From: Nitrospiria bacterium
Lineage (GTDB): Bacteria; Nitrospirota; Nitrospiria; JACQBZ01
DNA: 52,451 nucleotides
NCBI GenBank assembly: GCA_035517655.1
Contig: DATIYJ010000064.1
Span: 1-52,451, forward strand
Reading direction: 5' to 3'
The position numbers and the translations under genes were made by a program. Within the stretch, counting starts at the first letter, position 1. Every line of letters begins with the position of its first letter. Positions 3,891-14,443 of this stretch are shown here, in pieces. Below the pieces are notes generated by a model, which saw nothing but the letters and a program-made list of their open reading frames with translations, searched no databases and was not told the origin of the DNA.

Positions 3891-4565
3891 ATGACGACGC
3901 CGGCCGGGTCCAAGAAGATCGCTCCGTCGATTCTCTCGGCGGACTTTGCCCATTTGGCGGAGGAGATCGCCAAAGTCACCGAGGCCGGCGCCGATATGAT
4001 CCATGTGGACGTGATGGACGGCCATTTTGTTCCGAACTTCACGATCGGTCCGCCGATCGTGAAGGCCATCCGCAGGGCGACCCGGCTTCCGCTCGACGTC
4101 CATCTGATGATGACGAATCCGGAGGATTTCATTCAGGACTTTATCAAGGCGGGAAGCAACTATATCACGGTTCATGTCGAGACCTGCCCCCATCTCCATC
4201 GGACGATTCAGTCGATCAAGGAAGAGGGGGTGAAGGCGGGCGTGACCTTGAATCCCGCGACGCCGCTTTCGAGCGTCGAGGAGATTCTGGGCGACGTGGA
4301 CCTCCTTTTGATCATGTCGGTCAACCCCGGTTTCGGCGGCCAGAGCTTTATTCCGTCCGCGCTGGAAAAGCTGCGCGCGGCCCGAAGGATGATCGATCAA
4401 CACGGGGCGAAGGCCGAACTCGAAATCGACGGCGGCATCAAGGTCGAAAACGTTGCGACCATCGCCCAGGCCGGCGCGGACATCTTTGTCTCCGGTTCGG
4501 CCATCTTTCACAGCAAGGATTACAAAGATACGATTCAAAAGATGCGGGCGGCGATCGGGTCTTAG
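3891..4565 (+). CDS. rpe: Ribulose-phosphate 3-epimerase
   Basis: Interconverts ribulose 5-phosphate and xylulose 5-phosphate in the pentose phosphate and Calvin cycles. The 224-residue TIM barrel shows all signatures: APSILSADF at the N-terminus, HVDVMDGHFVPN with metal ligands, DVHLMM, MSVNPGFGGQ and the phosphate-binding EIDGGI and VSGSAIF near the C-terminus. It begins one base after the rsmB stop, so it is in the same operon. Confidence 0.96.
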   Translation: MTTPAGSKKIAPSILSADFAHLAEEIAKVTEAGADMIHVDVMDGHFVPNFTIGPPIVKAIRRATRLPLDVHLMMTNPEDFIQDFIKAGSNYITVHVETCPHLHRTIQSIKEEGVKAGVTLNPATPLSSVEEILGDVDLLLIMSVNPGFGGQSFIPSALEKLRAARRMIDQHGAKAELEIDGGIKVENVATIAQAGADIFVSGSAIFHSKDYKDTIQKMRAAIGS

Positions 4566-4598
4566 GCTGCATCGGTGTTTTATACAAGAGGTTCTTCG

Positions 4599-5582
4599 GT
4601 GGAGTGGAGAAGACCTGCCGTCTTGCCCAAGGTCGGATATGTTTTTATTGTCTTTCTTATTTCAAGCCTTTCGGTCGCTTGCGGATTCGGCGGGAAAGCG
4701 GACAACAGCAGTAGCGGAAGCGGCGGCAAGAGCGTCTGGACCACGAAGACCTCAATGCCCACTCCGCGGACGGGTCTGGCGGTCGGGGTCGTGAACGGCA
4801 TCCTCTATGCCGTCGGAGGCGACGTCGAAACCAACACGGGAGTGCTTGATCTGCCAACCGTGGAGGCCTACGATCCGGTGACGGACAAGTGGACTCCGAA
4901 GGCTCCCATGCCCACCCCGCGGTCGGGTCTGGCCGTTGGCGTCGTCAGCGGCATTCTCTATGCCATCGGAGGCGACAACGGCTCTACCACTGTTGAGGCC
5001 TATGACCGTGTGAAGGATTCTTGGACCACGAAAACTCCGATGCCCACCGCGCGGTACGGCCTGGGGGTTGGCATGGTGAATGGCCTTATTTACGCTGTGG
5101 GAGGCGTCATCGCGCCCGGCAAACCGGGTACGGTCGATGTTTACGATCCCGAAAAGGACATGTGGGCCACGACGACCGGCTTGATGCCGACTGAACGGAT
5201 GTTGCTCGGCGTCGGCGTGGTGAACGGCATCCTTGATGCCGTCGGAGGAAGCCCCGACGGTTCGACGAATCTTCCGACGGTCGAGGCCTACGATCCGGCG
5301 TCCGGCTGGTCCACGGAAACGCCGATGCCCACCGCGCGGGGCGGTTTGGCCGTTGGCGTCATTAACGGGATTCTTTATGCCGTGGGCGGCCAATTGCCGG
5401 ATATTTCCGTCGGCAGCTCAGTGGCAAAAACTCTCGAGGCCTTTGATCCGGCAACCAATAAATGGACCGCCAAGGCCCCGATGCCGACCGGACGGACATT
5501 GCTGGCCGCCGGGGTGGTGAACGGGGTCCTGTACGCCGTCGGGGGCGACGATGCGGGGACGGTCGAAGCCTTCATACCCTGA
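4599..5582 (+). CDS. Kelch-repeat beta-propeller lipoprotein
   Basis: An exported protein of unknown partner. A hydrophobic signal segment (VFIVFLISSLSVAC) ends in a lipobox-like SVAC, followed by a Ser/Gly-rich linker. Six kelch motifs of about 50 residues follow, each of the form MPTxRxGLAVGVVNGILYAVGG, consistent with one six-bladed propeller. The repeats are also similar in DNA, so the copy number could vary by recombination. I chose the GTG at 4599 because AGAGG lies seven bases upstream (4587-4591); an in-frame GTG at 4575 is the alternative. Likely role: surface or periplasmic binding. Confidence 0.8.
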   Translation: MEWRRPAVLPKVGYVFIVFLISSLSVACGFGGKADNSSSGSGGKSVWTTKTSMPTPRTGLAVGVVNGILYAVGGDVETNTGVLDLPTVEAYDPVTDKWTPKAPMPTPRSGLAVGVVSGILYAIGGDNGSTTVEAYDRVKDSWTTKTPMPTARYGLGVGMVNGLIYAVGGVIAPGKPGTVDVYDPEKDMWATTTGLMPTERMLLGVGVVNGILDAVGGSPDGSTNLPTVEAYDPASGWSTETPMPTARGGLAVGVINGILYAVGGQLPDISVGSSVAKTLEAFDPATNKWTAKAPMPTGRTLLAAGVVNGVLYAVGGDDAGTVEAFIP

Positions 5583-5601
5583 TTTCGGTCCGGTAAAGGT
5601 C

Positions 5602-5952
5602 ATGGCCGAGGTGACGATTTATCATAATCCGCGTTGCGGGACGTCCCGGAAGACGCTGGAACTCATCCGAAAGAAAGGGATTGAACCGGACGTCGTCGAA
5701 TATCTCAAAACGCCGCCGACCGAGAAAGAGCTGGACCGGATCTTGACGCTCCTGAAGATGGAGCCGCGGGAATTGATCCGAACGAAAGAGACGGAGTATA
5801 AAAAGTTCAAGCTCGATCAACCGAAACTTTCCCGCACCGACCTGATCGCCGCGATGGTCAAGCATCCGATCTTGATCCAGCGACCGATCGTCCTGTCCAA
5901 AGGCCGCGCCGCCCTCGGTCGGCCCCCCGAAAACGTCGAGAAAATTCTTTAG
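5602..5952 (+). CDS. ArsC-type (glutaredoxin-fold) reductase
   Basis: A 116-residue thioredoxin-fold protein of the ArsC/Spx/YffB family. The N-terminus has the arsenate-reductase signature IYHNPRCGTSR with the single redox cysteine. The later arginine region LIRTKE and the HPILIQRPIV segment are also present, as in glutaredoxin-coupled ArsC. The ATG at 5602 gives the family-typical N-terminus; the frame is open further upstream into the kelch gene but that part is not coding. No ars operon surrounds it, so arsenate may not be the physiological substrate. Confidence 0.88.
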   Translation: MAEVTIYHNPRCGTSRKTLELIRKKGIEPDVVEYLKTPPTEKELDRILTLLKMEPRELIRTKETEYKKFKLDQPKLSRTDLIAAMVKHPILIQRPIVLSKGRAALGRPPENVEKIL

Positions 5953-5995
5953 TTCCCAGCTCATCCCCGCCGTCACGGTTGAGTACAGGATCGAT

Positions 5996-6001
5996 TATAA
6001 T
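5996..6001 (+). promoter_or_regulatory. -10 box close to the DUF3187 gene start
   Basis: A perfect TATAAT ends six bases before the ATG at 6008, with no Shine-Dalgarno in between and no convincing -35 at 17 nt. If used, it would give a leaderless transcript. Confidence 0.45.
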
Positions 6002-6007
6002 TATCAC

Positions 6008-7018
6008 ATGAAGTTATTCCTCCTCATTTTCTGCGTTCTATGGATCCTGGTACCGGATCCAATTTCCCAGGCGGAGCCGCCCGCGGAGGGAAGCGGGCCT
6101 TTTCCCACCCGGAACTACAGTCCCATCCAGCTCCTCTTTCTTTCTCTTCCCGTTGAAAAGGCGGCCACGGTTCCTCGCGGTTCGTCCGAATTGAGCTTGG
6201 GGGCCGCGGAAAGTAACACGATCCTGGTCAAAGCGAATCCCAACGTCGATGTTCTTATGAAATTTGAAACCGTCCGTTCGGCGCTGCAAATCAAGCATGG
6301 TTTCACCGATCGTTTCGAGGCGGGTATCGAGGTTCCGTTTTATTACAGAAACGGCGGTTTTCTGGATCCATTTATTATACGCATAGAAAAAGCCTTCCGC
6401 AGTTTAAATCTGAATCGCCATCTGTTTAACGACGGCTCCTTTGGAGGTTTTATGATCAAGCGGGACGGGGAAATAATTCTATCCGGCGGCGACCGTCAAT
6501 CCGGACTGGGGGATGTGTCTTTGAACGGCAAATATACGGTTCTTCAAGAGGGCCCCGTACAACCGGCCATGGCACTGCGCGGAGCCGTTAAATTCCCTAC
6601 CGGGGATTTCGATCGGGCGTTCGGATCGGGGAAGACGGATGTCGGCGCTGGACTTGTGCTCCAGAAGAGCATGGGCCGTCGGTGGGTCTTTTATTTGAAT
6701 CAAAGTGTCGTCGACCCCGGCGGCCGTTTCGGGACGACCGATTTAACCTTGCATCCGATTTATTCCGCTGCTTTGGCGGCGGAGTTTTTGTTCGCGCCTT
6801 CATTGTCCATCGTGGGGCAATTTGATTATTACACGACCCCTTTCCGCCACGCGGGAGATCGTCTGTTGGATCAAGGAGTCGCGGAGGCCGTTCTGGGATT
6901 CAATTATCGATTCAAGCCCCGACTCCTCTGGCAACTGTACGGAATCGAAAACTTCGCGGACCCCGGAGGAGCCTCGGCGGATTTTACGCTGGGCACCAAT
7001 ATCACGTGTCAGTTTTAG
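6008..7018 (+). CDS. DUF3187-family exported protein (probable outer-membrane beta-barrel)
   Basis: 336 residues with a clear signal peptide (MKLFLLIFCVLWILVPDPIS, cleavage near AEPPAE). The mature N-terminus GPFPTRNYSPIQLLFLSLP matches my memory of the DUF3187 family. The remainder is rich in alternating polar/hydrophobic strands ending in Phe (FTLGTNITCQF), which suggests an outer-membrane beta-barrel. Function unknown. It stands alone between the ArsC-like gene and pheS. Confidence 0.75.
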   Translation: MKLFLLIFCVLWILVPDPISQAEPPAEGSGPFPTRNYSPIQLLFLSLPVEKAATVPRGSSELSLGAAESNTILVKANPNVDVLMKFETVRSALQIKHGFTDRFEAGIEVPFYYRNGGFLDPFIIRIEKAFRSLNLNRHLFNDGSFGGFMIKRDGEIILSGGDRQSGLGDVSLNGKYTVLQEGPVQPAMALRGAVKFPTGDFDRAFGSGKTDVGAGLVLQKSMGRRWVFYLNQSVVDPGGRFGTTDLTLHPIYSAALAAEFLFAPSLSIVGQFDYYTTPFRHAGDRLLDQGVAEAVLGFNYRFKPRLLWQLYGIENFADPGGASADFTLGTNITCQF

Positions 7019-7062: not shown

Positions 7063-7091
7063 TTGACAAAATCTCCTCCCGTCGGTATTGT
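7063..7091 (+). promoter_or_regulatory. Promoter of pheST
   Basis: A consensus TTGACA (7063-7068), 17-nt spacer and TATTGT (7086-7091). The pheS frame is open across this TTG, which could be mistaken for a start codon but is the -35 box. The leader before the ATG at 7123 is about 25 nt. Confidence 0.8.
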
Positions 7092-7122
7092 AAAGGCCGA
7101 CCGTTTTCCGTCACGGGGTTTC

Positions 7123-8694
7123 ATGTCGTCAGAGATCGCACAGCTTTTATCCGGTTTGCATCCGCTCGAGCGTAATGTGCTCCGGACGCTTAAAATGCGT
7201 CCGACGTTGTGGGATCATGAGTTGATGCAGGAGACCGGTCTGGATGAATCGCGCCTTTCCATGGCGCTGGGATGGCTGATGATAAAAGATCTTGTGAAAA
7301 TTGAGGAGGAAAGAGCGACGCCCTTCGTATCCGTTACGGAACTCGGCAGAAAATATGCGGAGCACGGAGTACCGGAGAAGCGGATACTCGATCGATTGAA
7401 AGCAGGTGAGAAAATCACCGTCAAAGATCTTCCCCAACTTGAAAGCATGGACTCCTCTGAAGTCAGCACCGCTATCGGAAACCTGAGAAACAGGGACCAT
7501 GAAGTTGTTCGGATGGGACCCGGCGGGGTTTTAGAGTCGAAGAACGCATCCCTGCCGGTTATGGTTGAATCGGTGCTGCCGGGCCTTTTGAGGCGGCTAT
7601 CTTTAGCCGCAGACGCGGTGGATGAATCGGGACTTTCGGTTGAAGAGAAGCATCTTCTCGATGATGTTCTTGAAAAAACTTGGAAGACGCGAGGCGTGAT
7701 CAAGCGACACGAGAAGAAATCAAAACGGATCTCGCTTACCGATATAGGCCGAGATTTGGCGCTTCAACTGACGCAGGAAACCGCGCTAGCGGAGGAAATC
7801 GCCCAACTGACGCCGGAGCTGCTCAAAGACGGGGCGTGGAAGGGAAAATCTTTCCGTAAATACAGTATCGGCCTCCGTCCCTCCCGAACAGCCGCGGGAC
7901 GGAAGCATCCCTACCGGGAGTTTCTCGACGGCGTCAAGGCCAAGCTGGTATCGATGGGCTTCCAGGAAATGCGCGGGCCGCTGGTCGAATCCGAATTTTG
8001 GAACAGCGACGCGCTCTTCATGCCGCAGTTTCACCCGGCGCGGGATATTCATGACGTCTATTTCGTGGACCATCCCAAAACGGTTGCGACTCTGCCCGAA
8101 CCGTATGCGGCGCAGGTCGCCAAAACGCACGAGTCGGGCTGGAAAACCGGCTCGCGCGGATGGCGCTACTCGTTTGATATCGGGCGGGCGAGGCGGCTTG
8201 TTCTGCGGAGCCAGGGCACGGCGGTCTCGGCCCGAACCTTGGCGGCGGCTCCGCGGATTCCCGGAAAATATTTCTCGATCGCACGATGCTTTCGTTACGA
8301 CCTGGTCGACGCGACCCATGCCCCCGATTTTTTTCAGGTCGAAGGGATCGCGCTGGGCGATCAGATCACCTTCCGGACGCTTCTGGGCCTCTTAAAATTG
8401 TTCGCGACCGAGATGGCCCGTGCCGCGGAGGTCAAATACCTGCCGGCCTATTTTCCGTACACCGAGCCGTCGGTCGAAATGCATGTCCGTCATCCGAGTC
8501 TCGGCTGGATGGAGCTGGGCGGGGCGGGGCTGTTCCGTCCGGAGGTGACCTTCCCGTTGGGTGTCAAGGTTCCCGTGATCGCCTGGGGGTTGGGATTGGA
8601 CCGGATGGCGATGGTCGCGCTCGGCATCGGCGACATTCGGGATCTTTTCTCGAGCGACCTCGATCTGATCCGAACCAAGCGGGCGAAGCCGTAA
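7123..8694 (+). CDS. pheS: Phenylalanyl-tRNA synthetase alpha subunit, archaeal/eukaryotic type
   Basis: Catalytic subunit that charges tRNA-Phe. The protein has 523 residues, against roughly 330-350 for ordinary bacterial PheS. Residues 1-230 are winged-helix-like modules (for example LERNVLRTLKMRPTLWDHEL) in place of the bacterial coiled coil, as in archaeal and eukaryotic subunits. The class II core follows: motif 1 region around 283-298, motif 2 at 389-408 (CFRYDLVDATHAPDFF) and motif 3 at 488-496 (WGLGLDRMA). It is followed three bases later by a matching archaeal-type pheT. Start chosen at ATG 7123 downstream of the promoter. Confidence 0.95.
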   Translation: MSSEIAQLLSGLHPLERNVLRTLKMRPTLWDHELMQETGLDESRLSMALGWLMIKDLVKIEEERATPFVSVTELGRKYAEHGVPEKRILDRLKAGEKITVKDLPQLESMDSSEVSTAIGNLRNRDHEVVRMGPGGVLESKNASLPVMVESVLPGLLRRLSLAADAVDESGLSVEEKHLLDDVLEKTWKTRGVIKRHEKKSKRISLTDIGRDLALQLTQETALAEEIAQLTPELLKDGAWKGKSFRKYSIGLRPSRTAAGRKHPYREFLDGVKAKLVSMGFQEMRGPLVESEFWNSDALFMPQFHPARDIHDVYFVDHPKTVATLPEPYAAQVAKTHESGWKTGSRGWRYSFDIGRARRLVLRSQGTAVSARTLAAAPRIPGKYFSIARCFRYDLVDATHAPDFFQVEGIALGDQITFRTLLGLLKLFATEMARAAEVKYLPAYFPYTEPSVEMHVRHPSLGWMELGGAGLFRPEVTFPLGVKVPVIAWGLGLDRMAMVALGIGDIRDLFSSDLDLIRTKRAKP

Positions 8695-8697
8695 CCC

Positions 8698-10401
8698 ATG
8701 CCGACGATCCAGGTCAAAATGAAGGATCTTGAGACTCTCCTGGGCCGGCCCATCACACGGTCGGAGTTGACCGACCGGCTGCCGTTGGTGAAGGGCGAGA
8801 TCAAAGAGCACGACGAGTCCACCGGCGAGTTGAAGCTCGAATTGAACGACACGAACCGGCCGGACCTGTGGTGCGTCGAGGGAATCGCCCGGCAGATCAG
8901 AACGCATCGCCTGAGGAAGGCCGTTCCATACCCCTTCTACAAGGGGAAACGGAAAGCGGCGGCCGTCATCGAGGTGGCGCCATCCTTGAAAGCCATCCGC
9001 CCGCACATCGGCGCCTGCGTCGCGCGCGGGTTGTCCATCGATGAAGAGACCTTGGTGCAACTGATCCAGACGCAGGAGAAGCTGAGCGAGAGCTTCGGTC
9101 GAAAGCGGCAACTGGTTTCGATCGGGCTCTATCGCCTGGCCGAGATCGGTTTTCCCGTGTTCTACAAAACGGTCGAACCGGACGGCGTCCGATTCGTTCC
9201 CCTCGGGTTCGATCTCCCGATGACGCCGGCCGAGATTTTAAAAAAGCATCCCAAGGGTCTGGCGTACGCGGGCATTTTGTCCGGAACCACGGCCTATCCT
9301 CTGCTGGTCGATCGGGAGAACAAGGTTCTTTCATTCCCGCCGATCATCAACAGCCGCGCCGTCGGTGAGGTGCGGGCGGGGGATCGCGATCTGTTCGTCG
9401 AGGCGACCGGGACCGATCATCGTATGGTGATGCTCGCCGTGAATATTCTGGCGGCGAACCTTGCCGATCGGGGCGCCGAGATCGACCCGGTCGAGGTCCG
9501 TTATCCGTACGCCACCGACCTGGGTCGAAGGATTGCCATGCCGTCCGTTTTGTCCAGGCCGATGAGCGTGGAGTTGGATCAATTTAGTTCGGCCCTGGGT
9601 CAAACGGTCACGATCCCGAACGCAATGTCGGTCCTGAAGGCGTACGGGTACGATGTTAAAGTCCGCGGGCGGCGCCTCACGGTCTCCGTTCCGGCCTATC
9701 GGGACGATCTGCTTCATCCGGTGGACGTGGTGGAGGATTTTGCCATCAGCCGCGGGTATGAAAGTTTTGAGCCCGAGATGCCGTCCGAATTCACCGTGGG
9801 AGGGCTCTCGGCGATCGAGCAGTTTTCGGATCGGGCACGGGAATCCATGATCGGGATGGGATTCCAGGAAGTGATCTCAAACATCCTGACGAATCAGGAG
9901 GAATCGGTCGATCGGATGAACCTTTCCGGCAGGAAGGTCGGTCTGGTCTCGGTTGAGAACGTGATGTCCCAGACCTACTCGGCGCTGCGGAATGGGATCA
10001 TCCCGTCTCTGCTGAGGGTGGAAGCCGCCAGCTCGAAAAGTTTTTACCCTCATCGGATTTTTGAGGCGGGTGAGACGGCCGTCGTGGACGCAAAAGCGCC
10101 GGAGGGAACGCAAACCCTTTTGAAGTTGGCCGCCCTCATCGCCCATCCGGCGGCCAACTTCTCGGAACTGCATTCCTTTCTGGATCTGTTGATGTACTAT
10201 CTGGGCGCGAGCTATCGATTGGAACCGGTTTCCCATCCTTCCTTCATCGAGGGTCGAGTCGGGAAGATCGTGATCGAAGGCCGCGACCTTGGCCTCATCG
10301 GCGAACTTCACCCACAGGTCCTTGAGAACTGGCAGATCGCCATGCCCGGGACGGTTTTCGAATTGGCCCTGGACGCTCTCGCCGAATCGTTGCAGAAATA
10401 G
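8698..10401 (+). CDS. pheT: Phenylalanyl-tRNA synthetase beta subunit, archaeal/eukaryotic type
   Basis: Partner of PheS in the alpha2-beta2 enzyme; carries the editing (B3/B4) region. At 567 residues it is the archaeal/eukaryotic form: bacterial PheT is near 800 residues with an N-terminal tRNA-binding EMAP-like domain and a C-terminal ferredoxin-fold anticodon domain, and neither is seen here. The LELNDTNRPDLWCVEG segment (47-62), a B5 region at about 285-360 and a degenerate class II core at 370-567 (ending TVFELALDALAESL) fit the short form. Start ATG is three bases after the pheS stop. Confidence 0.95.
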   Translation: MPTIQVKMKDLETLLGRPITRSELTDRLPLVKGEIKEHDESTGELKLELNDTNRPDLWCVEGIARQIRTHRLRKAVPYPFYKGKRKAAAVIEVAPSLKAIRPHIGACVARGLSIDEETLVQLIQTQEKLSESFGRKRQLVSIGLYRLAEIGFPVFYKTVEPDGVRFVPLGFDLPMTPAEILKKHPKGLAYAGILSGTTAYPLLVDRENKVLSFPPIINSRAVGEVRAGDRDLFVEATGTDHRMVMLAVNILAANLADRGAEIDPVEVRYPYATDLGRRIAMPSVLSRPMSVELDQFSSALGQTVTIPNAMSVLKAYGYDVKVRGRRLTVSVPAYRDDLLHPVDVVEDFAISRGYESFEPEMPSEFTVGGLSAIEQFSDRARESMIGMGFQEVISNILTNQEESVDRMNLSGRKVGLVSVENVMSQTYSALRNGIIPSLLRVEAASSKSFYPHRIFEAGETAVVDAKAPEGTQTLLKLAALIAHPAANFSELHSFLDLLMYYLGASYRLEPVSHPSFIEGRVGKIVIEGRDLGLIGELHPQVLENWQIAMPGTVFELALDALAESLQK

Positions 10402-10493: not shown

Positions 10494-11237
10494 ATGACAA
10501 CGATACTTCATGGAAACTCGTTGAACCAACCGATCGTCGATGTTCGCCGTGACCGCGAACGATTTCATACCCGGGCCGGCTGGCTGGATTCCTATCACAG
10601 TTTCAGTTTCAGCCATCATTACGATCCGGCCAATACGCATCATGGGCTGTTGCGGGTCAGCAACGACGACGTCATCAAGGCCGGGACCGGGTTTTCGACC
10701 CATCCCCATCAGGATATGGAGATCGTAACGTGGGTGCTCGATGGAGAACTGGAGCACAAGGACTCGGTTGGAAACAAGGGCATTATCTATCCGGGGCTGG
10801 CGCAGCGGATGAGCGCCGGAACCGGCATCTGGCATTCGGAGATGAATCCGAGAGGGGACCGCGACGTCCGTCTGGTCCAGATGTGGGTCCTTCCGGATAC
10901 GGAAAGCGCGGACCCCGGCTACGAGCAGCTCGACATCAATTCCCAGCTCAAGCAGGGTGGGCTGGTTCCCATCGCTTCGGGTCGCGGGCATCAGGCCGCG
11001 ATCTCGATCCGTCAGCGCGGCGCCGTGTTATGGGGCGGGCGTCTTCGTCCGGGAGAATCGGCGCGGATCCCGGAGTCGCGCTTTGTCCATCTTTATGTGG
11101 CCAAGGGCGCCGTGGAATTGGAAGAGGCTGGCTCTCTCGCGGCCGGGGACGCCGTCCGGCTCACCGCAGCCGGCGCGCGGCGGATGACGGCTGATCCGAC
11201 CACCGGCGCGGAAGTGCTTTTATGGGAGATGGAATGA
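10494..11237 (+). CDS. Pirin family protein (YhhW-like)
   Basis: A 247-residue bicupin with the pirin signature: AGWLDSYHSFSF near the N-terminus, then the metal site STHPHQDMEIVTWVL (two His) and GTGIWHSEMNP (His and Glu). Such proteins bind Fe; some bacterial members act as quercetinases or regulate metabolic enzymes. GGAGA precedes the ATG. The gene converges on rplT, 22 bases away. The substrate cannot be told from sequence. Confidence 0.92.
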   Translation: MTTILHGNSLNQPIVDVRRDRERFHTRAGWLDSYHSFSFSHHYDPANTHHGLLRVSNDDVIKAGTGFSTHPHQDMEIVTWVLDGELEHKDSVGNKGIIYPGLAQRMSAGTGIWHSEMNPRGDRDVRLVQMWVLPDTESADPGYEQLDINSQLKQGGLVPIASGRGHQAAISIRQRGAVLWGGRLRPGESARIPESRFVHLYVAKGAVELEEAGSLAAGDAVRLTAAGARRMTADPTTGAEVLLWEME

Positions 11238-11259: not shown

Positions 11260-11628
11260 CTAGGCCGCCGCCGCGGCCAACTTGGCTTTGGCTGTTTCCG
11301 CGATTTTTGCGAACCCCTGGGGATCGGTCACGGCCAGATCGGCCAGGACTTTCCGATCCAGGCCGATTCCCGCTTTCTTCAATCCGGCCATAAACTTCGA
11401 GTACGAAAGACCGTGACCGGACACGGCGGCGTTAATCCGCACGATCCAAAGCCGCCGAAAATCCCGTTTCCGTTGCCGTCGGTCGCGGTAAGCGTATTGC
11501 CGGCCTTTGTCCACCAGCTCCGTTGCGGTTCGGAAAAGCCGATGCTTGCCGCCCCAAAATCCCTTGGCCAGTTTCAACCGGCCCTTGCGGCGTGTTCTTG
11601 TTTTGGGACCTCCTTTTGCGCGTGGCAT
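11260..11628 (-). CDS. rplT: 50S ribosomal protein bL20
   Basis: 122 residues beginning [16 protein letters not shown], with the very basic N-terminal arm, then [21 protein letters not shown] and a globular C-terminal RNA-binding domain. An Ala-rich tail ends the protein. AAGGAG lies before the ATG. It is the last gene of thrS-infC-rpmI-rplT; L20 commonly represses its own operon, although I did not identify the operator. Confidence 0.98.
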
Positions 11629-11658: not shown

Positions 11659-11856
11659 TCAGGCGTATGGCAACAGGCGTTTGATCGACTGTTGATCCGC
11701 CTTCGAAACCAGTCCCGTGGACTTGAGGTGTCTCTTACGGGACCGAGTTTTGTGGGTTAATAAATGGCGCTTTCCGGTCTGCCTATGTTTAATCTTGCCG
11801 GTTCCGGTCCGCTTGAACCGTTTGGCCACTCCTTTGTGTGATTTTAGCTTCGGCAT
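11659..11856 (-). CDS. rpmI: 50S ribosomal protein bL35
   Basis: 65 residues, MPKLKSHKGVAKRFKRTGTG onward, with the typical Lys/Arg-rich composition. The frame is open seven codons further upstream, but the ATG at 11856, about ten bases after AAGGA, gives the family N-terminus. It sits 27 bases after infC and 30 before rplT. Confidence 0.98.
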   Translation of the reverse strand: MPKLKSHKGVAKRFKRTGTGKIKHRQTGKRHLLTHKTRSRKRHLKSTGLVSKADQQSIKRLLPYA

Positions 11857-11883: not shown

Positions 11884-12402
11884 TCACGCGGTTTGGGGTT
11901 TGGGCGACAGGATCAAGATCATGTTTCGCCCTTCCAGTCGAGGTTGCTGTTCGATGATTCCGATGTCGTTCACGGCCTCGATCACCTTGCCCAGGGTCAT
12001 TTTTCCGGCATCCAGGTAAGCCATTTCTCTCCCGCGGAACATCATGGTGACCTTGACTTTATCGCTGGCCTGTAAGAATTCACGAACATGACGAATTTTA
12101 AAATCCAGGTCGTGTTTGTCCGTATGCGGTCTCAATTTGATCTCTTTCACATGCGTTGTCTTCTGATGTTGCTTCATCGCATGGAGTTTTTTGTTCTGTT
12201 CGTATTTGAATTTTCCGTAATCCATAATACGACAGACGGGCGGCTGAGACGTCGGCGCCACTTCCACCAAATCATAGCCCAGCTCCGCGGCCTTCGTAAT
12301 GGCCTCTCGCGTCGGCAGGACCCCGAGCTGTTCTCCGTCGACTCCGATGACACGGACTTCTCGGACACGGATTTCGTTGTTGACACGCTGTTTGACCGCG
12401 AT
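11884..12402 (-). CDS. infC: Translation initiation factor IF-3 (ATC start codon)
   Basis: Prevents 30S/50S association and proofreads initiator tRNA. The C-terminal domain (KEIKLRPHTDKHDLDFKI, then VKVTMMFRGREMAY) is obvious. The N-terminal domain (VNNEIRVREVRVIGVDGEQL) lies upstream of the first ATG/GTG in this frame. Extending the frame leads to an ATC at 12402-12400, eight bases after a perfect AGGAGG (12416-12411), giving a 172-residue protein of normal length. IF3 genes classically use AUU or AUC starts, which make infC translation self-limiting. It follows thrS by 61 bases. Confidence 0.95.
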   Translation of the reverse strand: MAVKQRVNNEIRVREVRVIGVDGEQLGVLPTREAITKAAELGYDLVEVAPTSQPPVCRIMDYGKFKYEQNKKLHAMKQHQKTTHVKEIKLRPHTDKHDLDFKIRHVREFLQASDKVKVTMMFRGREMAYLDAGKMTLGKVIEAVNDIGIIEQQPRLEGRNMILILSPKPQTA

Positions 12403-12463: not shown

Positions 12464-14443
12464 TCACGATGCCCTTTGATCGACTTCACCCTTCAGCCGA
12501 TCGATGAAGGCGTTGACGTCCACCTCGCCGAGATTGTCTCCGCTGCGTTTGCGCACCGAAAGCTTTCCGCTTTGGGCCTCGCGGGCTCCGAGAATGACCA
12601 TGTAAGGGACTTTTGCCATCTCCGCTTCGCGGATTTTTAATCCGATTTTTTCGTTCCGAGGATCCGTTTCCACCCGGAAACCGGTTTCGGTCAACCGTCG
12701 GGAGACCTCGTTCGCGTACCCGTGCTGCTGGTCCGTGATCGGCATCACCTTGACCTGGACCGGGGCGAGCCAGAGCGGAAAGGCGCCGGCGTAGTGCTCG
12801 ATCAGGACTCCGAAGAACCGTTCGATCGATCCCATCAGCGCGCGATGAATCATAATGGGTTGATGTTCTTTGCCGTCTTCCCCGATGTAGGAAAGATTAA
12901 ACCGCTGCGGCAGATTGAAGTCGACCTGAACGGTGGTGCATTGCCAGGACCGGCCGAGCGCGTCCTTGATCTTGAGGTCGATCTTGGGGCCGTAGAAAAC
13001 CCCCTCGCCGGGGTCGATGCGATAGGCCATGCCCTTGGTCTTGAGAGCCGATTCCAGGGCGGAGGTGGCCCGTTCCCAGTTTTCGGGAGAGCCCACCGCC
13101 TTTTCAGGTCGCGTGGAGACATAGATTTCGTATTCGCTGAAGCCGAAGGTTTTTAGTGTCAAGACCGTCAGGTCCAGAACCTTGAGGATCTCCTGTTCGA
13201 TCTGGTCCGGTCGGCAGAACAGATGGGCGTCGTCCTGTGTAAAGCCCCGGACCCTCAACAGACCGTGAAGGACTCCGGACCGTTCATAACGATAAACGGT
13301 GCCCAATTCCGCGAAGCGGATCGGCAGATCCCGATAGCTCCGAAGGTGAGACTTGTAGATCATGATATGGAAAGGGCAGTTCATCGGCTTGAGTTCATAC
13401 TCGATTCCTTCGATGGACATCGGCGCGTACATGTTCTCCCGATAAAAATCGAGGTGACCGCTTTGTCTCCAAAGATCCAGCCTGGCGATATGGGGAGAGT
13501 ATACGAAGTCATAACCATGCCGCTGGTGTTGTTCTCGCCAGAAATCCTCGATCTGTTTCCGGATCTGGGCGCCTTTGGGATGCCAGATAACCAATCCAGG
13601 CCCGATTTCATCCATGACGTTGTACAAATCCAGATCCCGGCCCAGCCGCCGGTGATCGCGCCGTTTGATCTCTTCCAGCCGTTTCAGATGTTGGTCCAGG
13701 GCCTCCTGGCTCGGAAAGGATGTGCCGTAAATCCGTTGCAGCATCGGGTTGCGTTCGTCCCCCCGCCAATACGCCCCTGCGCTGGTGAGCAGTTTGAAGG
13801 CCGGGACGTGCTGGGTGGAGAGGACATGAGGGCCGCGGCACAAATCGGTGAAGGGCCCTTGTTCATAAACCGTGATGGTTTCGTTTTCCGGCAGCTCACG
13901 GATGAGTTCGATTTTATACGGTTCACCTTGGGCTTCAAAGAAACGGATGGCGTCTGTTTTTGAAAGCGTCTTTCGCTCGAAAGAATAACGCGCCGAGCTA
14001 ATTTCCTTCATTTTCCTCTCGATCTTTTCCAGGTCTTCCGGGGTGAAGGGCCGTCCCAGGTCGAAATCATAATAAAACCCGTCCTCGATCGGGGGACCGA
14101 TCGCCAGTTTGGCTTTCGGAAAAAGTTCCTTAACAGCCTGGGCCATGATATGGGCGCTGCTGTGACGGAACACCTCTTGTCCTTCCGGGGAAGAGAAAAA
14201 GACCGGTTCAATGATCAGGGGAAGCGTCGACGCTTCCGCCTCCGACAACCGTTGACCCAGACCCATCACGCTTCCGTTGACTTTGACGGCGACGGGTACC
14301 TCCTTCCAGGACGATTGGGCCTGGTCGAGCACCTCGGACAACAGGGTGCCCTTTGCGAACCGTCGTTCGGTCCGGTCTGGAAATCGAACCGTTACTTCCT
14401 GGGCTGATGAGGCGGTTTCTTTCATCGAATTTAGATGCGCCAT
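12464..14443 (-). CDS. thrS: Threonyl-tRNA synthetase
   Basis: 659 residues in the usual order. A TGS domain spans about residues 15-75. The editing domain carries HSSAHIMAQAV near 93 and a later TDLCRGPHV zinc-like site. The class II catalytic core has motif 2 near RYERSGVLHGLLRVRGFTQD and motif 3 near HRALMGSIERFFGVLIEHY. The C-terminal anticodon-binding domain is complete. Start ATG at 14443; an in-frame ATG six codons later is an alternative. First gene of the thrS-infC-rpmI-rplT cluster. Confidence 0.97.
   Translation of the reverse strand: MAHLNSMKETASSAQEVTVRFPDRTERRFAKGTLLSEVLDQAQSSWKEVPVAVKVNGSVMGLGQRLSEAEASTLPLIIEPVFFSSPEGQEVFRHSSAHIMAQAVKELFPKAKLAIGPPIEDGFYYDFDLGRPFTPEDLEKIERKMKEISSARYSFERKTLSKTDAIRFFEAQGEPYKIELIRELPENETITVYEQGPFTDLCRGPHVLSTQHVPAFKLLTSAGAYWRGDERNPMLQRIYGTSFPSQEALDQHLKRLEEIKRRDHRRLGRDLDLYNVMDEIGPGLVIWHPKGAQIRKQIEDFWREQHQRHGYDFVYSPHIARLDLWRQSGHLDFYRENMYAPMSIEGIEYELKPMNCPFHIMIYKSHLRSYRDLPIRFAELGTVYRYERSGVLHGLLRVRGFTQDDAHLFCRPDQIEQEILKVLDLTVLTLKTFGFSEYEIYVSTRPEKAVGSPENWERATSALESALKTKGMAYRIDPGEGVFYGPKIDLKIKDALGRSWQCTTVQVDFNLPQRFNLSYIGEDGKEHQPIMIHRALMGSIERFFGVLIEHYAGAFPLWLAPVQVKVMPITDQQHGYANEVSRRLTETGFRVETDPRNEKIGLKIREAEMAKVPYMVILGAREAQSGKLSVRKRSGDNLGEVDVNAFIDRLKGEVDQRAS

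Follow-up and report, generated by a model that had tools for sequence, protein, structure and literature searches.

Phenylalanyl-tRNA synthetases (PheRS) of the archaeal type have been described in the spirochaetes Spirochaeta, Borrelia, and Treponema, in which the alpha subunit has 513–528 residues, the beta subunit has 514–573 residues, and the pair was transferred together (PMC3191353). Andam and Gogarten (2011) placed the spirochaete enzyme near Thermococcales as its nearest archaea, and Nitrospira and Leptospirillum are not mentioned in that study (PMC3191353). No report of an archaeal-type PheRS in Nitrospirota was found in the open-access literature searched, which does not prove that none exists. 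In E. coli, the genes are arranged in the order thrS–infC–rpmI–rplT–pheM–pheS–pheT. Here, a pheST pair was analyzed in a window of 52,451 nucleotides (contig C64) from a Nitrospiria bacterium, the draft genome of which comprises 2.65 Mb in 71 contigs and is 99.3% complete.

Enzyme type and gene context of the window pair

The two reading frames of the pair are both intact and are separated by 3 bases. The pheS gene (7123–8694, + strand) encodes an alpha subunit of 523 residues with a winged-helix N-terminus and a class II catalytic core, and pheT (8698–10401, + strand) encodes a beta subunit of 567 residues with B1, editing B3/4, B5, and CLM regions. A longer pheS frame starting from TTG at 7063 begins within the −35 box of a candidate promoter; therefore, the ATG at 7123 was preferred as the better start.

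The enzyme type was evaluated using NCBIfam and Pfam profiles. PheT scored 519 bits against TIGR00471, the archaeal/eukaryotic type (cut-off 283), over residues 1–560, and 129 bits against the bacterial TIGR00472, far under its cut-off of 403. PheS scored 564 bits against NF003210 and also matched PF01409. The Pfam scan of PheT detected the PhetRS_B1, B5, and CLM core domains but neither an EMAP/tRNA-binding domain nor FDX-ACB, confirming the preliminary description of a short PheT that lacks the EMAP-like and FDX-ACB domains. Moreover, among solved chains PheT came closest to Pyrococcus 2cxi and to the cytosolic enzymes of eukaryotes, bacterial chains matching far more weakly, and residues 1–354 aligned end to end with 2cxi. 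In this alignment, L203, S212, E235, and T237 of the window PheT correspond to L202, S211, D234, and T236, which we take to be the Pyrococcus editing residues.

Among 35 relatives, PheS hardly varied in its catalytic blocks, for example FSIARCFRYD..DFFQVEG or AWGLGLDRMAM. The AlphaFold model of PheS had a mean pLDDT of 76.7 and a pTM of 0.51; its best structural match was human cytosolic PheRS alpha (3l4g), and in our own reading of the DSSP string the helix and strand groups of residues 1–215 fit winged-helix modules. With its 523 residues, PheS thus agrees in length with an alpha subunit of about 500 residues, and the N-terminal winged-helix modules proposed earlier are predicted with moderate confidence, the model and the 3l4g match being in agreement. 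From these profile and structural comparisons, the window pheST is identified as an archaeal/eukaryotic-type PheRS. By analogy with its families, the alpha subunit would activate phenylalanine and charge tRNA-Phe, the beta subunit would provide the functions of the editing and B5 domains, and the N-terminal modules of alpha may take over the tRNA-binding role of the coiled coil in bacterial enzymes. The enzyme is presumably active and essential.

Downstream of pheT, a pirin-family gene (10494–11237, + strand; PF02678 and synteny) is followed by the native neighbors rplT (11260–11628, − strand; PF00453), rpmI (11659–11856, − strand; 65 residues, frame read from the sequence), infC (11884–12402, − strand; PF00707/PF05198), and thrS (12464–14443, − strand; PF00587, PF03129, and PF07973). 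The pair had been described as sitting beside rplT on the opposite strand; it is indeed convergent to rplT, but the pirin gene intervenes. Among loci of the same family, this arrangement was found only in the window and in L117, and in most others pheT and rplT are direct convergent neighbors. On the other side lies rpe (3891–4565, + strand), assigned by synteny in many of the loci L116–L125 and L151–L162; pheST commonly follows rpe in Nitrospiria and in families f14 and f21, and def–fmt–htpX–rsmB is usually found ahead in Nitrospiria and f14. The stretch from rpe to pheS (4575–7018) carries variable cargo (a kelch-repeat protein, an arsC-like gene, and DUF3187) that varies even within the family.

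A candidate sigma-70-type promoter (TTGACA-17-TATTGT; 7063–7091, + strand) with 10 of 12 consensus matches precedes pheS. Of four relatives compared, L116, L118, and L004 keep the box at an unchanged distance from pheS and L117 lacks it; the upstream gene differs among the relatives that share it (DUF3187 or arsC). Its retention despite differing upstream genes supports a promoter that would belong to pheST itself, although the regional count of such boxes is unremarkable (5 found vs. 3.8 expected, not above chance). The earlier claim of a promoter belonging to the pair is supported by this conservation but gains nothing from the count. Furthermore, infC in the window starts with ATC behind a strong Shine–Dalgarno sequence (AAGGAGG). 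ATC is conserved in relatives, being the infC start in most Nitrospiria and in f21 and f22, and ATA is used in f15, f39, and several families with a bacterial-type PheRS; both appear to be conserved rare start codons of the infC autoregulation kind.

Distribution, phylogeny, and tRNA-Phe

The preliminary description had named a bacterial-type pheST elsewhere in the genome as evidence against a replacement. The 99.3%-complete assembly contains one PF01409 gene and no bacterial-type pheT above the TIGR00472 cut-off, so the window pair is the sole copy. A weak match on contig C62 (profile positions 46–123) was taken as an EMAP-like stretch of another protein.

Across 396 Nitrospirota genomes, pheT of the archaeal type exceeded its cut-off in 212 and that of the bacterial type in 159; some genomes fell under both cut-offs, which fragmentation explains in part. 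The archaeal type occurs in families f1–f15, f18, f21, f22, and f39 and the bacterial type in f16, f17, f19, f20, f23–f38, and f40–f42, and no family among these genomes carries both. Archaeal-type PheRS is common to the whole class Nitrospiria and to several other classes, suggesting that the replacement is old and not local. Bacterial pheT above the cut-off was also absent from 11 genomes behind spirochaete, archaeal, and Nitrospiria loci, and a search for plasmid-borne relatives gave only distant, bacterial-type matches. The archaeal-type pheT was detected in 27 of 149 sampled Spirochaetota genomes; its distribution is patchy in that phylum too, with most sampled genomes lacking it. As a separate observation, in most families outside Nitrospiria the match of bacterial-type PheT to TIGR00472 is confined to positions 157–798 (about 690 residues; loci L076–L097 among others). 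The N-terminal EMAP-like part is seemingly missing from these proteins; it is present in f16, f19, and one genome of f29 (G154).

Trees were constructed for PheT (79 rows), PheS (72 rows), and both jointly (71 rows), together with a careful joint tree of 35 rows. The archaeal sample comprised Thermoproteota, Asgard, Aenigmatarchaeota, and a few others, with euryarchaea represented by the half-length Pyrococcus PheT chain and two Thermoplasmata; bacterial-type and eukaryotic PheRS were left out, and the separation from the bacterial type rests on the profile scores. As the preliminary description had anticipated, both subunits clustered with archaeal sequences, and the bacterial grouping that it had named as contrary evidence did not appear. 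All archaeal-type copies from Nitrospirota formed one clade in the PheS, PheT, and joint trees (support 95–100), and the Spirochaetota copies formed one clade in three of the four trees. The exception was PheS of L185 (G426, Spirochaetota), a long-branched sequence among archaea that may be a paralogue, the product of another transfer, or contamination.

The Nitrospirota and Spirochaetota clades were sisters (100/100), followed by the Aenigmatarchaeota L006 and L007 (100/99). In the careful joint tree, the window PheRS lay outside the spirochaete clade, in the clade sister to it, each clade having a support of 98–100; the kinship with spirochaete enzymes suggested earlier was therefore borne out. 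Trees in which Nitrospirota joined L006/L007 without the spirochaetes, or the spirochaetes did so without Nitrospirota, were 89 log units worse in each case (AU p = 8e-66 and 5e-47), and an independent archaeal origin in each of the two phyla was rejected (AU p < 1e-40) with euryarchaea barely sampled. The L006 contig was ruled out as a mis-binned bacterial contig by its archaeal neighbor genes, which were recognized by eye (topoisomerase VI A, tRNA endonuclease, and archaeal-type GlyRS). The sister relation is settled within the sample used; with euryarchaea this thinly sampled and two bacterial phyla surveyed, the donor may be another archaeal lineage and there may be further bacterial recipients.

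The tRNA-Phe identity set, which had been proposed for inspection, proved to be ordinary. The window genome has a single bacterial tRNA-Phe gene (GAA, U20, A73, and encoded CCA), its two matches, one at an end of contig C62 and one at an end of C20, representing one and the same 76-base sequence, and no changed identity was seen in this genome, U20, GAA, and A73 all being kept. Two main acceptor-stem types, GCCGAGR and GGGCAGK, occur in the phylum (GGGCTCT in f21), with no strict match to the PheRS type (loci L272–L296). From the identity set, the only departure seen was in f3 and f6, which have C at position 20. There is no sign in these genes that the tRNA had to change along with the enzyme; a bacterial tRNA-Phe with GAA, U20, and A73 would be usable with either enzyme.

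History of the pair beside rplT

We consider it very probable that the window pair is the sole alpha2-beta2 PheRS of its genome and of archaeal descent, that it goes back to one entry into bacteria and is shared with Spirochaetota, and that the bacterial pair was lost early. The archaeal pair would have entered bacteria once, with one Aenigmatarchaeota branch as the nearest sampled archaea. One of the two phyla may then have handed it on to the other, or an unsampled bacterium may have been the source for both, and within Nitrospirota it would have taken over early at the expense of the bacterial pair. The idea of an assembly chimera or a contaminating archaeal contig, to which a fragmented draft might give rise, is negligible and was ruled out, because further assemblies from the same family, class, and phylum, some of them single-contig genomes, carry the same genes with the same flanks, and the flanking genes are bacterial.

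The gene order bears on how the takeover proceeded. Among bacterial-type Nitrospirota families in which the cluster could be read, most show the order and direction of E. coli. The archaeal pair is still beside rplT in most archaeal-type families, and it is convergent to rplT in most Nitrospiria families and in f15, f21, and f22. Family f39 (L134 and L135) is the only one in which it was seen in the native slot after rplT, with thrS–infC–rpmI–rplT–pheS–pheT all in one direction. The preliminary description had read the locus as a displacement in situ. Displacement in place is only partly supported: the native pair is absent elsewhere in the window genome and the in-slot order exists in f39, but the window pair runs convergently to rplT and lies downstream of rpe. 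This convergent order could reflect in-place replacement and inversion, or insertion beside rplT.

Family f39 is informative here. In a tree of ThrS, IF3, and L20 rooted on six other bacteria, f39 grouped with the bacterial-type families (97/97), the deep branches being weakly supported. In the joint PheRS trees, by contrast, f39 was sister to f18 (100) and not early-branching. Its tRNA-Phe, used with an archaeal enzyme, has the acceptor stem GGGCAGT, one base from those of the bacterial-type families f17, f32, and f42, whereas the f18 stem is GCCGAGG. These features hint at a second, true in-slot replacement in f39; its thrS cluster, tRNA-Phe, and infC start would agree with a later swap into this family but do not amount to proof. 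Uniting all archaeal-type lineages in the thrS-cluster tree cost 13.6 log units (AU p = 0.09), so that a single replacement was not rejected. No useful extra marker genes for placing f39 and f18 in the species tree were present within the loci examined. A palindromic repeat lies in the rplT–pheS spacer of both f39 genomes (L134, 2824–2886; L135, 5114–5176) and was perhaps left by gene exchange; no further exact copy was found in the loci examined.

A more far-reaching reading, to which we give a little less than an even chance, is that archaeal-type pheST would be an exchangeable bacterial cassette. One bacterial pool would have passed between Nitrospirota and Spirochaetota, and f39 would have exchanged its bacterial pheST for an f18-like pair placed exactly behind rplT, its retained tRNA-Phe differing by at most one base from those of its bacterial-type relatives.

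It is quite conceivable, if tentative, that the pair was inserted downstream of rpe beside rplT, that the old pheST was deleted, and that f39 later took an f18-like pair into the native slot. The rpe–pheST linkage and the conflict of the f39 PheRS tree with its thrS cluster, GGGCAGT stem, and ATA start of infC fit such a course, although chance adjacency to rplT is unlikely unless homologous flanks guided the insertion, and a simpler history stays compatible with the AU test.

That simpler history, in which the bacterial pair was replaced exactly in place behind rplT in an ancestor, the window arrangement was inverted later, and f39 retains the original order, is possible but somewhat doubtful. 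The sister relation of the f39 and f18 enzymes speaks against it, as do the grouping of the f39 thrS cluster with bacterial-type families and the resemblance of its tRNA-Phe to theirs. It accords with the one-direction order in bacterial-type families and E. coli, with the persistence of the archaeal pair beside rplT and the native slot in f39, and with the AU result.

An ancestrally archaeal-type phylum whose bacterial-type families regained a bacterial pair is improbable. The rooted thrS-cluster tree does place several archaeal-type lineages around the bacterial-type group, and in most bacterial-type families PheT has no counterpart to the first 156 profile columns, but the deep branches of that tree are weak, the bacterial-type pairs hold the same position as in E. 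coli, and f16 and f19 have a full-length bacterial PheT.

Comparison with known systems

Cross-domain transfer of an aminoacyl-tRNA synthetase is ordinary in kind, yet the present case is broader than those in the literature searched; since existing annotation models give these proteins the correct scores, the finding is also partly known implicitly. About half of the sampled genomes in a phylum that is known for its nitrifiers and iron oxidisers use an archaeal-type PheRS, and marker sets based on TIGR00472 will miss pheT in them. The phylum also offers a natural experiment in which nearly identical tRNA-Phe is served by two very different synthetases. Moreover, the spirochaete PheRS is sister to a bacterial clade and not directly to an archaeal one, and a thermophilic spirochaete ancestor meeting Thermococcales is therefore no longer the natural story.

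The bacterial PheRS of the same phylum (TIGR00472) catalyzes the same reaction from the same operon neighborhood but differs in subunit sizes and bacterial beta domains, and it was found in no family that carries the archaeal pair. Human and Plasmodium cytosolic PheRS (3l4g and 7by6) share a similar core and, in 3l4g, the N-terminal winged-helix alpha; eukaryotic cytosolic chains score less per residue than Pyrococcus against the window PheT. Archaeal PheRS (Pyrococcus horikoshii beta, 2cxi; Aenigmatarchaeota L006 and L007) has the same domain order, a full-length TIGR00471 match, and similar residues at the editing positions, whereas the window pair sits in bacteria, behind a candidate sigma-70-type promoter and with a bacterial tRNA-Phe. 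The spirochaete PheRS is alike in that both subunits are archaeal-type, of similar lengths, and the bacterial pair is absent. In contrast to the spirochaete loci examined, none of which has rplT next to pheST, the Nitrospirota case concerns another phylum and several of its classes, with the pair beside rplT and, in family f39, at the native place within the operon.
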